DNA from: Tunturibacter psychrotolerans | GTDB taxonomy: Bacteria > Acidobacteriota > Terriglobia > Terriglobales > Acidobacteriaceae | Direction of reading: 5' to 3' | Length of the DNA stretch: 64,000 nt | Assembly (NCBI RefSeq): GCF_040359615.1 | Contig: NZ_CP132942.1 | Coordinates: 2,232,001 to 2,296,000, forward strand | In this document: piece after piece, positions 22,500 to 40,021 of the stretch | How the letters are laid out: each line of letters begins with the position of its first letter | Position numbering within the stretch: the stretch's first letter is position 1 | Notes under the pieces: model-generated | Database searches by the model: none | Seen by the model: only the letters and a program-made list of their open reading frames with translations | What the model was told of the DNA's origin: nothing | Position numbers and translations under genes: made by a program

Positions 22500-23386
22500 C
22501 GAGGAAGGAGGGGGAGGAGAAGGAGCGGTGTTATGAGGGCGAGGTCGGCGAGGCTTCGGAGGGTGAGGCGTGCGGTGTGATGGCGGCGGTGATGCAAGAG
22601 GAGGAGCAAGAGAGTGGAGGCCGCGATCGCGCATGGGATCGACCACGAAACCTGACGGTCAAGTATGGAGAAGGCGGCGCTGAGGAAGATGAGTGTGGCG
22701 GTGAGAAGCGGAAGTTTGTGGAGGGCAAGTTGGGTGGCGGGGTGTGCGGGGGGAGCGGATGGCGTGAGGGAGCTGTGTTCCCAGGTGTAGATGAAGAGGC
22801 AGTTGAGGCTGCATGCCGTAGCGAAGAGGACCGCGAGTGGGAATAGGGAGATGCGGAGGTCGGGGCGGCGAGCTACGGTGGGGATAAAGGTAGCGGCGGC
22901 GAAGAAGAGGCCGACGGCGATCTCCTTGGGGAGACGATGAGCGCTGCTGGTGGCGTGGATGAGGATGAAATAACCGAAGAGCAGACCGCCGAGGATGAGG
23001 TAGAGGTGGATGGCTTGGGGTTCAAGGTGGGGGAGAAGGATTGCGAGGGTAATGGAGGCGGCGAGGATGCCGGTGAGGAAGGCGCCACGGTGCCGATTGT
23101 GGAAGTAGTGGCGCGCTTCGAGGTCGCTACTGTTTGATGCGTCGATGTTGCGCGCGTCGAGGAGACGGTCGGCGGCGTAGAGCATCCAGACGGCGAGAAA
23201 CATGGCTACGATGCTGACCGCTGGTAGATGGAGATGGTTGGCGGAGGCGATGAACCAGGTCCAAAGGGCGGCTACTGTGGGGGCGTCGAGGGAGAGAAGA
23301 TGCCAGAGGGTGAGGGGGTGTCTGGAGGATGTGGTCAGGTGGTTGAGAGTGGCGTTGGTGCTTCGTGTTTGTGTTGCTGTCGTCAC
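22496..23386 (-). CDS. UbiA-like prenyltransferase family membrane protein
   Basis: A 296-residue protein with about eight hydrophobic segments. The first Asp-rich site appears as YAADRLLDARN near residue 70, similar to NDxxDxxxD of UbiA enzymes, which bind a prenyl diphosphate through Mg2+. The second motif of the family is less clear. It starts with GTG (23384-23386) and has GAGGA 11 bases upstream, slightly long. The 3' end overlaps the methyltransferase start. The reaction and substrate are unknown. Confidence 0.65.
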   Translation of the reverse strand: MTTATQTRSTNATLNHLTTSSRHPLTLWHLLSLDAPTVAALWTWFIASANHLHLPAVSIVAMFLAVWMLYAADRLLDARNIDASNSSDLEARHYFHNRHRGAFLTGILAASITLAILLPHLEPQAIHLYLILGGLLFGYFILIHATSSAHRLPKEIAVGLFFAAATFIPTVARRPDLRISLFPLAVLFATACSLNCLFIYTWEHSSLTPSAPPAHPATQLALHKLPLLTATLIFLSAAFSILDRQVSWSIPCAIAASTLLLLLLHHRRHHTARLTLRSLADLALITPLLLLPLLPR

Positions 23387-23564
23387 TGTCAGTATCGTCC
23401 TCTTCGTTGAGTTTTGATGCCGCCGGATTGAGGGGTACCCCCCCCGTCATCCCATGCAAGTGGTTTATTTTCAGCGAATTGCCATTTTGGCATTCTGCAA
23501 AATCTTCATTCCAAAGGGGTTGCGGGTAAATTCGTCAAATCAAACGGGTTACGGGTTAATGTGG

Positions 23565-23590
23565 AAAACCCCGGGGATTCCGGGGTTTTT
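23565..23590 (-). terminator. Strong hairpin, probable bidirectional terminator
   Basis: AAAACCCCGG pairs with CCGGGGTTTT around a 5-base loop, flanked by A and T runs on either side so that it can act in both directions. On the minus strand it lies about 300 bases beyond the GIY-YIG stop and upstream of the UbiA-like start, where it would insulate the two units. Confidence 0.6.
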
Positions 23591-23762
23591 CTGTTTGCTT
23601 CATTCATTATAGCTGGTGGTGGGAAACTAATACGCCACGCGATTGTGCTGGATTGGCGCGGGTTTTTGGCGTTTGCGGGGTTGACAGGTTTTTTGGGGGC
23701 TTACTCAGGACGATGAAGTACGAATGATGATTGTTTTGGTAGTGTGCGGTGGACGTGCAAAA

Positions 23763-23885
23763 GCAAAGCAGATCCCCTTCTGGGATGACAACAAGAAAGG
23801 CAACAGCAACAGCAACGGCAACGGCAACTGCAATTGTAGATCCGGGGATGACAACAAGAAAGGCAACGGCAGCAGACACGGCAAC
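23763..23885 (+). repeat. Palindromic repeat cluster, copies 1 and 2, with CAACGG-type hexamers
   Basis: Copy 1 (23768-23803) reads GCAGATCCCCTTCTGGGATG, then ACAACAAGAAAGGCAAC. Copy 2 (23836-23866) has a shortened hairpin (GATCCGGGGATG) and the same tail. Between them lie hexamer units CAACAG, CAACAG, CAACGG and CAACGG. The same unit occurs at 24252, 29061 and 39951, always in the same orientation. Confidence 0.85.
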
Positions 23886-23889
23886 TTGA

Positions 23890-24189
23890 TTAATCGGGTT
23901 GGGGTGGCAGGAGGTTGTCCCATGTCGGATTCGTTCGTTCGATCAGTTCGATCTTTTGGGCTCTTGTCCAATGCTTAAGTTCTTTTTCGCGGGCGATGGC
24001 GCTGCGCACGTAACGGAAATATTCGCAGTAGACGAGGCGGTGAATGTTGTAGTGCGCTGTGTGGGTTTTAGGGGGCGCTTCGTGGTGTTGATTGGTTCGG
24101 CGATGAATGTTGTTGGTTATGCCTATGTATAGGTTTCGCGAACGGCTGGATAGGATGTAGACCCAGAAGTGATAGTCGCGGGGAGGCAT
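23890..24189 (-). CDS. GIY-YIG domain nuclease-like small protein
   Basis: A 99-residue single-domain protein of the GIY-YIG superfamily (YhbQ/UPF0213-like). The family tyrosines are seen as WVYILSS (GIY position) and LYIGITNNIHRR (YIG position, followed by the conserved Arg). A Glu in AREKELKHW is the likely metal ligand. The Met at 24189 starts the conserved domain; 60 upstream codons are a leucine-rich reading of the CAACAG repeat and are not protein. No clear ribosome site is visible. The gene sits exactly between two repeat clusters. Such proteins can cut DNA, but function here is unknown. Confidence 0.75.
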   Translation of the reverse strand: MPPRDYHFWVYILSSRSRNLYIGITNNIHRRTNQHHEAPPKTHTAHYNIHRLVYCEYFRYVRSAIAREKELKHWTRAQKIELIERTNPTWDNLLPPQPD

Positions 24190-24251
24190 TTGGGGAGGGT
24201 AGCAGGGATTTCTTGGTGGGGATGGGAAAAGGTTGGACGGTAGCTGAGAGG

Positions 24252-24365
24252 TAACGGCAACAGCAGATCCCCTTCGGGGATGACAACAGAAATGCAACAG
24301 CAACAGCAACAGCAGCGGCAACGGCAACGGGAACAGCAACAGCAACAGCAACAGCCAATGCAACT
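24252..24365 (+). repeat. Palindromic repeat copy 3 with a long CAACAG hexamer tail
   Basis: The unit at 24256-24296 has a perfect ATCCCC-TTC-GGGGAT hairpin and the ATGACAACA tail. It is followed by about eleven hexamers of the CAACAG/CAACGG type up to 24365. The GH57 stop is only 26 bases further. It is a direct repeat of the cluster at 23763-23885 on the other side of the GIY-YIG gene. Confidence 0.85.
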
Positions 24366-24390
24366 TCAATGGCAGGTTGCGGCGTAGAGG

Positions 24391-26187
24391 CTAGGCTGTG
24401 GTTTCGACGGGATGGGGAAGGGGTGGAGCGGGGAAGGGCTCCTTGGCAGCGGTGACCCAGAGGCCGGGATCGATGTTGGGGAAGATGCTGTCGCGCTGTT
24501 CGATTTCGGCCAGGCGAGATTGCTGGGCTTCGGTGATGGCGCCAGATGATTCGTAGGTTTGCCAGAGGGCTTTGACTTCGTTGAACTGATCGTTGTGCGT
24601 GAGGAATCGGATTTCTGCGTAGTCGCGGGCAGCGCCGGTGGTGATGAGGAACTGCCAGTCGGAGGATTCGAGCAGGAGGAGTTCTCGGCAGAGCTGTTGC
24701 ATGACGCGTAGGGCGAGGTCAGAGGTGCGCCAGAGGCCGGTGGTGCAGACGTCGCGGGTGTAGATCTCGGCGGGGTAGATGTGGGTGTAGGTCCAGCTGG
24801 TTTCGGGGTTGAGCCAGACCTGGTTGTTGCCCTCCGTTCCCCAGGAGCCCTCGGGCATGGCGATGAAACCGCGGTGGGGGTACTGGTCGAGGTAGTCGGC
24901 GCAACTGATGAGCTGGATTCCGGACTCGTACTCGTGGAGGTTGCGGGCGACGGCTTCGAGCCAGAGGGAGCCCTCGAACCACCAGTGACCGAAAAGCTCG
25001 GCGTCGAAGGGGGAGCAGAGGATGGGAGGGATGGAGTCGTTGAAGCCGGACTTCAGCGCATCGTAGACGAGATGGACGAAGTGAGAGGCGTGGGCTTTGA
25101 CGCGCTCGGCGGCTTCCTGAGGGTAGTAGGGCTGCTTGTCTCCCATCTGGACTTTGGAGCCGGTGACGCGCCAGTAGCGATGACCGCCGGGCCAGCGTTT
25201 TTTGTGGAAGTCGAGGTAGACGCCGTCGCCGGGATAGCCTGTGTCTCCGGACCAGACCTGGAGGCCGGTGTGGGGGTCGCGGGGAAAGATGGTGGTGGCG
25301 TTCTCTTTGGCGGAGGGGCCGTCGACGTAGTAGGGCTGGTAGAGGGAGCGGTGGGGCTGGTGGGTGACACGCTCCTTTTCGGGAGTATGGGGAAGACCGT
25401 CGCGGGGTGGATCGTAGGGCGAGGCGGTGTGTCGGGACTCTTCAACGAGATGAGTGTCGACGAAGAAGAACTCGAGGCCGGCTTCGGAGAGGGCTTGCTC
25501 GACGCCGATGCGATGGAAGGCTGGGGGCGTTGGGGTGCCGTCGGAGTTGGGGACGGGTTGGCTCCAGATACCGGCGGGGCGGTAGCCGCACTCGGGTGCC
25601 CAGATGCCGCGAGGGGCTTTATTGAAGTGGCGGATGTGGGTGTCGACGGCGGTGTGGATCTGGGCGCGTACGCTCTCGTCCGTGCCGAGCAGAGGCATGT
25701 AGCCGTGGGTGGCGCCGCAGGTGATGATGTCGATGAGGCCGGTGTCGTTGAAGTGACGGAAGGCGGCGATGAGATCGCGGTTGAAGCCGTTGAAGTCGTC
25801 GAGTGCCTGCGAGAAGAAGCGCTGCCAGAAACGGGCGGTCTCGGCGAGATGGTGGTCGCCGGATTGGAGGAAGAAAGCTTCGTCTTCGCGGGCAGCTACG
25901 ATCTTGCGGGTGAGGTAGCGGGGGAACTCGGCGAGGAAGACTGGGTGAGAGAGCTGCTCAAGGAGGATGGGCGAGAGATTGAGGTTGCAGTTGAAACGGA
26001 TTTTGTCGCGCTCGAGATTTTTGAGGACGCGGAGAAAAGGGAGGTAGGTTTCGGCAGCGGCTTCGTGGAGCCACTCGAGTCCATGGGGCCACGTGCCGTG
26101 ATTGACGACATAGGGGAGATGCGCGTGCAGGGTGAAGGTGAGAAACCCTGCGGGGCGAGACGCATTGTCGATCGATGCCTTCGTCAA
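24391..26187 (-). CDS. GH57 1,4-alpha-glucan branching enzyme (DUF1957 type)
   Basis: A 598-residue enzyme that forms alpha-1,6 branches in glycogen-like glucan. GH57 motifs are clear: TLHAHLPYV near residue 17, the nucleophile Glu in GIWAPECGYRPAG near 200, and the acid Asp in CSPFDAELFGHWWFEG near 390. The C-terminal DUF1957-like helical region follows. The length agrees with branching enzymes of this family (about 530 to 600 residues). It is a stand-alone minus-strand gene, not next to other glycogen genes. Its 3' end abuts the repeat cluster. Confidence 0.9.
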   Translation of the reverse strand: MTKASIDNASRPAGFLTFTLHAHLPYVVNHGTWPHGLEWLHEAAAETYLPFLRVLKNLERDKIRFNCNLNLSPILLEQLSHPVFLAEFPRYLTRKIVAAREDEAFFLQSGDHHLAETARFWQRFFSQALDDFNGFNRDLIAAFRHFNDTGLIDIITCGATHGYMPLLGTDESVRAQIHTAVDTHIRHFNKAPRGIWAPECGYRPAGIWSQPVPNSDGTPTPPAFHRIGVEQALSEAGLEFFFVDTHLVEESRHTASPYDPPRDGLPHTPEKERVTHQPHRSLYQPYYVDGPSAKENATTIFPRDPHTGLQVWSGDTGYPGDGVYLDFHKKRWPGGHRYWRVTGSKVQMGDKQPYYPQEAAERVKAHASHFVHLVYDALKSGFNDSIPPILCSPFDAELFGHWWFEGSLWLEAVARNLHEYESGIQLISCADYLDQYPHRGFIAMPEGSWGTEGNNQVWLNPETSWTYTHIYPAEIYTRDVCTTGLWRTSDLALRVMQQLCRELLLLESSDWQFLITTGAARDYAEIRFLTHNDQFNEVKALWQTYESSGAITEAQQSRLAEIEQRDSIFPNIDPGLWVTAAKEPFPAPPLPHPVETTA

Positions 26188-29060: not shown

Positions 29061-29105
29061 GCAACAGCAGATCCCCTTCGGGATGACAACCAGAAAAGCG
29101 GCAAC
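29061..29105 (+). repeat. Palindromic repeat, copy 4
   Basis: The unit GCAACAGCAGATCCCCTTCG, then GGATGACAACCAGAAAAGCGGCAAC, differs from the others in hairpin loop size but keeps the ATCCC/GGGAT stem. It is in the short gap between the DUF948-like stop and the convergent mnmA stop. It is in the same orientation as all other copies in the window. Confidence 0.85.
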
Positions 29106-39950: not shown

Positions 39951-40021
39951 GCAACAGCAGATCCCCTCCGGGGATGACAACAAGAAAGGCAAGAACGAAA
40001 CAACTACAGCGGCAACGGCAC
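39951..40021 (+). repeat. Palindromic repeat, copy 5
   Basis: GCAACAGCAGATCCCCTCCG, then GGGATGACAACAAGAAAGGC, with a perfect ATCCCC-TCC-GGGGAT hairpin, then a degenerate tail with CGGCAACGG. The loop differs from copy 3 (TTC) while the stem is intact. It has the same orientation as the other copies. Confidence 0.85.

Follow-up and report, generated by a model that had tools for sequence, protein, structure and literature searches.

A Clade of Small GIY-YIG Nucleases as the Probable Partner of CGTC-like Palindromic Repeats in Bacteria

Results

The gene and its repeats in the window

We analyzed a 64,000-nucleotide stretch of DNA from Tunturibacter psychrotolerans (the window), in which a small GIY-YIG nuclease gene lies between palindromic repeats (REPs; Table 1). 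The gene is a stand-alone intergenic ORF with a GIY-YIG domain, outside any intron or intein, and its upstream neighbor is a glycoside hydrolase family 57 (GH57) gene. Its product matches PF01541 at 51 bits (Pfam; cut-off 22.6) and T5orf172 more weakly, and has E68 as its invariant glutamate. The protein had no match to Y1_Tnp (Pfam), no match in NCBIfam, two weak matches only in PADLOC (E 0.02–0.04), and no match among phage records at 1e-5; Rfam returned one sub-threshold match for 23300–24700 and none above the gathering score. The source genome (5.64 Mb, 2 contigs) has two PF01541 places, the window gene and one in a 667-residue frame that is presumably UvrC, and one Y1_Tnp place, whose 3.3-kb locus (L028) lacks the TGTC-hairpin motif, a comparison that covers this genome only. 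Genes of the family appear in sequence records only as “GIY-YIG nuclease family protein”, “putative endonuclease” or “excinuclease ABC subunit C”. Two UPF0213 proteins of known structure are related by sequence, 1zg2 (BH0048; profile E 4.9e-13) and 1ywl (EF2693; 1.2e-10).

Table 1 The GIY-YIG gene, its neighbor, and tagged hairpins and hexamer tracts in the window
Feature	Position	Strand	Remark
GIY-YIG nuclease gene, 99 aa plus stop	23890..24189	-	ORF and Pfam PF01541
GH57 gene	24391..26187		Upstream neighbor
Upstream REP hairpin GTC-ATCCCC-GAA-GGGGAT-C, preceded by T (TGTC tag)	24266..24284	-	Near end 76 bases before start codon; repeat with 25 genome matches
Degenerate downstream REP hairpin GTCATCCCCGGATC	23839..23852	-	37 bases after stop
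Second downstream REP hairpin GTC-ATCCC-AGAAG-GGGAT-C	23771..23789	-	Orientation as upstream hairpin
GCAACR hexamer tract between the two downstream hairpins	23794..23838	+	
GCAACR hexamer tract on far side of upstream hairpin	24289..24360	+	
REP copy away from gene, loop GGA	39960..39978	-	
Further GTC-tagged hairpin of similar kind	29070..29087	-	

The three hairpins flanking the gene share one orientation, and the upstream one reads TGTC-ATCCCC-GAA-GGGGAT-CTG in the orientation of the gene. A 26-base repeat unit (up to 3 mismatches) has three copies in the window, as against none in any of 100 shuffles, and the pattern AGATYCCYNNNRGGRATGACAA has 25 exact matches in the genome against none for the reversed pattern, so the repeat is not a product of chance. 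On the GTC strand, the loops of these 25 matches are GAA (16), GCA (5), GGA (2), ACA (1), and TCA (1). In single-stranded DNA, GNA loops confer unusual stability; since the other strand reads UNCG in RNA, the strand that matters cannot be told from the loop by itself. Folded as single-stranded DNA, the upstream hairpin does only moderately better than its shuffles (8/200 as good) and the hairpin at 23771–23789 no better than its shuffles (52/200 as good). With folding this modest, it is recurrence and comparison that carry the case, and folding energy does not. GCAACR-like stretches also flank several other genome copies of the repeat. The strands of the 25 copies are weakly clustered along the chromosome (22/25 fit two arcs; 22/1000 permutations as good); GC skew over twenty 20-kb samples did not fix the origin and terminus.

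Association of the gene with GTC-tagged hairpins

We assembled three sets of loci carrying homologs of the window gene. Set A came from named genome contigs (55 loci, of which six partial ones, L074 and L079–L083, were dropped, leaving 49). Set B holds about one locus per genome, the 30 best-scoring of 117 matching genomes among 250 of the window’s class, with 28 used after two cut by contig ends (L092, L102) were dropped; it includes the window’s own locus (L086). Set C was drawn likewise from Alphaproteobacteria (30 loci, best-scoring of 107 matching genomes among 241). The 107 loci are 106 distinct ones (L052 in A is L182 in C), those of Sets B and C are top-scoring and not random, and some are broken copies. 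Going by the titles of its records, Set A spans Acidobacteriota, Alphaproteobacteria (many of them Rickettsia), Verrucomicrobiota, Planctomycetota, a Treponema, Bacteroidota, an Ignavibacteriae, an Endomicrobium, and several Patescibacteria, with hairpins in members of each of these groups. Cyanobacterial and betaproteobacterial records of a plasmid collection also carry the gene with hairpins (read by eye), which brings the range to what we take to be about ten phyla. A plasmid of Planktothrix agardhii (p1; L309, 2501–2785) has the gene with nearby GTC-tagged hairpins between an MmeI-type restriction gene and the DISARM gene drmA, and in a Neisseria gonorrhoeae record (L310, 2486–2755) the GIY-YIG gene stretch adjoins dRS3-like CGTCATTCCCGC repeats; the latter record is filed as a 2.17-Mb plasmid and, judging from that size, looks like a misfiled chromosome.

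A hairpin was scored under the main rule when it had GTC, a perfect stem of at least 7, and C, or GTCAT with a 5-base stem and C, with a span of at most 100 and a position within 200 bp of the gene. This rule was settled after the loci had been viewed, and the controls were scored by the same rule. The first rules, with perfect stems of at least 6, did not pick up repeats with internal loops, and the rule was revised twice; the first gave hairpins on any side at 23/49 (A) and 10/28 (B) loci, lower than the later rules. A stricter rule required GTCAT-N3...N3′-ATC.

The gene is associated with tagged hairpins. Under the main rule, 88/107 loci have one on at least one side and 65/107 on both (Set A: 34 upstream, 36 downstream, 31 both, 39 any, n = 49; Set B: 23, 22, 19, and 26, n = 28; Set C: 19, 19, 15, and 23, n = 30). 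Random 260-bp windows at least 400 bp away in the same loci score at only 3–5% (87/1626, 23/597, and 18/620 for A, B, and C). The stricter rule gave 37/49 (A) and 26/28 (B) on any side, against 13/3850 for shuffled 200-bp upstream windows, and a hairpin density of 5.4–8.2 per kb within 100 bp of the gene compared with 0.1–0.3 beyond 800 bp. Other ORFs in the same loci have a hairpin on any side in 55/245 cases and on both in 9/245 (12/98 and 3/98 for ORFs of up to 200 aa), and 28/145 other intergenic stretches contain one. No hairpin was found by the main rule at 19/107 loci; several of these misses show variants by eye, with GGACC ends in L062, L089, and L098 and AATAG in L033.

At the 65 two-sided loci, the nearest two hairpins are inverted with tags outward in 46, both on the gene strand in 7, with tags inward in 8, and both on the opposite strand in 4. 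The downstream hairpin covers the stop codon at 13/50 loci with an opposite-strand downstream hairpin. At eight loci (L085, L087, L091, L099, L104, L110, L112, and L113), the gene takes its TGA stop from the ATGAC with which the downstream REP ends.

The initial annotation of the window, made from its sequence, had described a 99-residue GIY-YIG gene between direct copies of a palindromic repeat, which the ORF, the PF01541 match, and the three like-oriented hairpins confirm. Direct orientation holds at this locus and fails as a rule, being a minority form (7/65) beside the inverted, tags-outward order (46/65). The suggested pairing of REP/RAYT type, with a GIY-YIG protein in the place of the HUH enzyme, gains support from the 88/107 loci with nearby hairpins, and the same count speaks against homologs being only rarely near the repeat.

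Restriction to one clade, matched stems, and selection

The association is restricted to one clade among the GIY-YIG genes examined. In 40 genomes without a strong homolog, a search at E 0.01 matched 21 genomes with 36 matches, 30 of which had loci; 28 of these (L114–L141) were examined, the two weakest being left out. Two of the loci have hairpins (L114, L131) and one has none (L116), and all three look like fragments of the window-gene family. At the 25 genes of other GIY-YIG subfamilies, from the same bacterial class, no hairpin was found (0/25). A FastTree phylogeny built from 99 of the 107 family proteins, after removal of those that were broken or of odd length, and from 21 of the 25 others separates the two groups by a single branch with none misplaced, at a support of only 0.41. 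The motif E-(K/R/N)-x-(L/I/F/V)-K-x-W-x-(R/P) occurs in 88/99 family proteins and in 0/21 others.

Stems vary between loci yet agree across each gene. The first 14 bases of the upstream and downstream hairpins have an identity of 0.88, vs. 0.66 when permuted within set (maximum 0.71, n = 2000). One genome (G388) has 12 paralogous genes, and among the 10 fetched (L204–L213; median identity 0.56), 9 have a hairpin by rule, with nine different stems. In 8 of these 9 paralogs the tags point toward the gene, unlike elsewhere. Protein and repeat distances are weakly correlated over 103 loci (Mantel r = 0.148, 2/2000 permutations), and also within Alphaproteobacteria (0.237, 46/2000) and acidobacteria (0.193, 41/2000). 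Among the matches listed for 12 genomes reached through loci, with places given for five of them, the repeats of a genome include types found at its genes (the long-loop type of L055 in G278; the L031 and L032 types in G272). The protein is under purifying selection, with dN/dS of 0.04–0.43 in the 12 computable of 13 pairs.

Unit boundaries and sites without the unit

The repeat-gene-repeat block is a genuine and widespread arrangement that either moves or has moved recently. In the genome of one Rickettsia endosymbiont (host Omalisus), two loci (L036 and L039) are 96.3% identical over a 351-bp block that begins 45 bp ahead of the gene and stops 33 bp past it, running from outer REP end to outer REP end, and no similarity between them extends past this block. 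When the genus Rickettsia was searched with one unit and its flanks, all 23 of 23 genomes matched somewhere; of 32 matches among those listed, picked for covering the gene at E up to about 1e-46, the left end of the unit is reached to within 6 bases by 28, the right end by 20, and both ends by 17. Loci L227 and L228 of another genome (G106) likewise share a REP-bounded block, of 486 bp, with a synonymous divergence of 1.17 and dN/dS of 0.04; relatives searched for the L228 site gave many dispersed REP matches. A target-site duplication of at least 3 bp was found in none of the 46 inverted units (0/46, with about 1.4 expected by chance). The base before GTC in these units (one locus counted twice) was T in 38, C in 6, and A in 2.

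Related sites differ in the presence of the unit. For the window site, a search of 41 genomes of the genus for the GH57 neighbor matched 35 at 1e-100 and yielded 30 loci. In the terminal 1.6 kb of 29 of these loci (all but L173), the GIY-YIG gene turned up only at the window’s own locus and at L145, where the copy is broken, lying in two frames. Locus L146 (G126) has one REP, read by eye, and no gene at the equivalent spot. On Sphingobium plasmids, the unit lies between fnrL and a response regulator in seven records (the copy in TomTYG73 is frameshifted); of four plasmids without it, TomTYG74 and TomTYG64 keep one fused palindrome (GTCACCCCGGGTCAAGCCCGGGGTGAC in TomTYG64), and TomTYG72 and TomTYG65 are without a REP. 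In Azospirillum lipoferum 4B, a dimer-gene-dimer arrangement lies between sufB and sufC, and the four relatives fetched are without the unit there (of 106 matching records, only 4B covers 80% of the query); the spacers there are too divergent for a clean insertion to be read from them. At all of these sites the difference may be a gain or a loss of the unit.

In the Rickettsia endosymbiont, the unit of L039 (4300–5900) lies between an AbrB-like and an rpiB-like ORF, named by eye. We rejected this site as a clean empty-site case, as at least one relative with both flanks holds ~380 bp of other sequence, and the change there was perhaps a replacement rather than an insertion.

Co-occurrence of gene and repeats among genomes

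Genomes with the gene have more repeats. A strong gene (E below 1e-20) is present in 87 of the 250 class genomes, and the median count of GTCATYCYN{3,14}RGRATC is 43 with the gene and 11 without (Mann–Whitney P = 1e-13). With at least 25 copies, 59 genomes have the gene and 33 lack it, compared with 28 and 130 below 25 copies (odds ratio 8.3). Relatedness was controlled by permutation within families, in the class genomes only (3/5000). In Alphaproteobacteria, 72 of 241 genomes have a strong gene, and the pattern GTCATNCCN{3,22}GGNATCC has a median count of 10.5 with the gene vs. 1 without (at least 10 copies: 37 with, 16 without; below: 35 with, 153 without; odds ratio 10.1). Four repeat-rich class genomes (G058, G094, G196, and G202; 131–143 pattern matches) had no gene match even at E 0.01, and repeat-rich Alphaproteobacteria without the gene include G515 (150 matches), G508 (77), and G362 (50). 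Conversely, matches number fewer than 10 in 12/87 gene-bearing class genomes and at most 3 in 18/72 gene-bearing alphaproteobacterial ones, counts in which the patterns miss other stems.

Further points of the initial annotation bear on these results. That the gene and repeats might form a mobile unit is supported by the 96.3% identity of L036 and L039 from REP to REP and by sites without the unit in G126, on Sphingobium plasmids, and in Azospirillum. That copy number would fall where the gene is absent holds as a strong association (odds ratios 8.3 and 10.1). The case named there as speaking against the pairing, genomes rich in repeats but lacking the gene, is found in a minority: 33/92 repeat-rich class genomes and 16/53 repeat-rich Alphaproteobacteria have no strong homolog.

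Discussion

We propose that a distinct clade of small GIY-YIG nucleases is probably the dedicated partner of CGTC/TGTC-tagged REPs. We put it no more strongly because repeat-rich genomes without the gene exist and because the role of the nuclease is one that we infer. The nuclease would cut the REP hairpin and drive the spread of REPs. The REP-gene-REP block, of about 350–490 bp, would then be a minimal mobile unit with REPs as its ends, and REPs without a gene would be its non-autonomous relatives, spread in trans. A REP might be extruded as a hairpin, either from a single strand or as a cruciform, and be cut by the nuclease at the GTC tag at the hairpin foot; from the broken end, the REP or the whole block would be copied elsewhere without target-site duplication. 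The window locus may be one such unit, with its REPs direct, at a site where a relative has one REP and no gene. We know of no GIY-YIG enzyme that joins strands, which counts against a dedicated partnership. Other points on that side are the 19/107 loci scored without a hairpin, the genomes with the gene and few pattern matches, the hairpins beside other ORFs, the low support for the split between the family and other subfamilies, the weak co-variation of protein and repeat, the other sequence at the L039 site of a relative, and the poor folding of the hairpin at 23771–23789. A bolder proposal, which we regard as a serious possibility and put forward tentatively, is that these units form a new class of bacterial mobile element of ~350–490 bp with one protein, a GIY-YIG enzyme serving as transposase on GTC-tagged hairpin ends, present in about ten phyla and the source of CGTC REPs including dRS3, RPE-4/RPE-6, and GTCATCCTGAGCGAAGCGAAGGATC-type repeats.

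The alternative that survives best, although we consider it unlikely, is that the gene is a passenger: REPs and block would owe their movement to something else (recombination by the host between REPs, slippage during replication, or another transposase), and the gene would travel inside. REP-rich genomes without the gene fit such movement, and the fused palindrome of TomTYG74 and TomTYG64 could come from deletion between short direct repeats in the stems. A passenger is harder to reconcile with an association that, of the GIY-YIG clades examined, only one shows, with paralogs that have different, matched stems, and with purifying selection on the protein. Nor is there a sign of another transposase at the source genome’s one Y1_Tnp locus, where the motif is absent, or at CGTC repeats, for which the available part of Di Nocera et al. 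(2013; PMC3733652) gives no transposase.

A nuclease that cuts existing REPs could also have its gene alone copied in through REP-homology repair, as free-standing homing genes are, with the REPs themselves not spread. Gene-less sites that keep one REP (G126, TomTYG74, and TomTYG64) would suit this account, and free-standing GIY-YIG homing genes occur in phages (T4 seg type) as a precedent. We judge it improbable, as there are sites without any REP (TomTYG72, TomTYG65, and the Azospirillum relatives), and homing by itself leaves the higher repeat number in genomes with the gene unexplained.

It is very improbable, in our view, that the nuclease polices REPs, resolving or limiting their hairpins for the host and sitting among REPs because these regulate its gene. 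Strong purifying selection and a stop codon inside the downstream REP at 13/50 loci agree with a host function of this sort; however, repeat number is higher, not lower, with the gene, and the block is dispersed and present or absent between relatives, unlike a housekeeping gene. That a small gene merely happens to lie next to intergenic REPs or terminators deserves almost no credence: other intergenic stretches do have such hairpins (28/145), but the rates at the gene are 77–93% in three sets, the stems are matched and mostly in inverted order, and other GIY-YIG subfamilies score 0/25.

If the clade is indeed the partner of the tagged REPs, GIY-YIG enzymes would be able to move tiny elements on their own, and a gene present in 87/250 and 72/241 of the genomes searched (E below 1e-20) would acquire a function. 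CGTC palindromes occur in many genomes, with no enzyme reported for them in 2013 in the available part of PMC3733652, and a candidate gene whose repeat types match makes their origin directly testable.

Among known systems, the repeats are closest in form to the CGTC REPs, which the available part of Di Nocera et al. (2013; PMC3733652) describes as having a CGTC or TGTC tag, stems of 8–9 bp starting with AT, loops of 4–5 bases, a CCA or CCA-like tail, and dimers, as including Neisseria dRS3 and Rickettsia RPE-6 and RPE-4, and as repeats that “apparently lack a dedicated transposase”. Our repeats share the unpaired CGTC/TGTC tag, the AT-starting stem, a short unpaired tail, and dimers with those in that part of the paper, and hosts named there are also in common (Rickettsia, Bradyrhizobium, Azospirillum lipoferum, Novosphingobium aromaticivorans, and Sinorhizobium meliloti). 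The repeats of the Rickettsia relatives fit (stem 8, loop 4, CCA tail). The window copies differ in a 6-bp stem (AT start), a 3-base loop, and a CTG tail, and many loci have stems that do not start with AT, e.g., GTCGCCCC and GTCACCCC. As its stem and loop are off the CGTC values, we call the window repeat CGTC-like and place it outside families 1–4; the wider group is named CGTC-like as well, because the window repeats are shorter with another tail and many stems lack AT.

We found no paper linking GIY-YIG genes to REPs in the literature searched, preprints and most subscription papers being outside its scope. The string “giy” does not occur in the available text of PMC3733652, nor does a term search of the accessible text of RepRanger 2025 (PMC12306157) or of a 2018 HUH survey (PMC6006769) find “GIY-YIG”; PMC9465073, in the part available, has GIY-YIG and RayT merely in one gene list.

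UPF0213 proteins (1zg2, 1ywl) are related to the family by sequence, and the 25 examined genes of other GIY-YIG subfamilies are without hairpins. Free-standing GIY-YIG homing endonucleases resemble the family in being small stand-alone GIY-YIG genes in intergenic DNA; unlike them, the window family is bracketed by genome-wide palindromic repeats, and its copies at unrelated sites share only the unit. The units also differ from insertion sequences with target-site duplication, there being none in 46 inverted units. REP/RAYT systems (REPtrons) are alike in having a small nuclease gene bracketed by tagged palindromes, with the repeat type going with the gene type, and the lack of a target-site duplication here is a further likeness. 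REPtrons have been deleted in many E. coli strains, leaving REPs without their RAYT (PMC3733652, available part), a parallel to the repeat-rich genomes that lack the GIY-YIG gene. The two differ in chemistry, GIY-YIG here as opposed to the IS200/IS605-like HUH/tyrosine type, and in the tag, which is (C/T)GTC in our repeats and GTAG in those of REP/RAYT.
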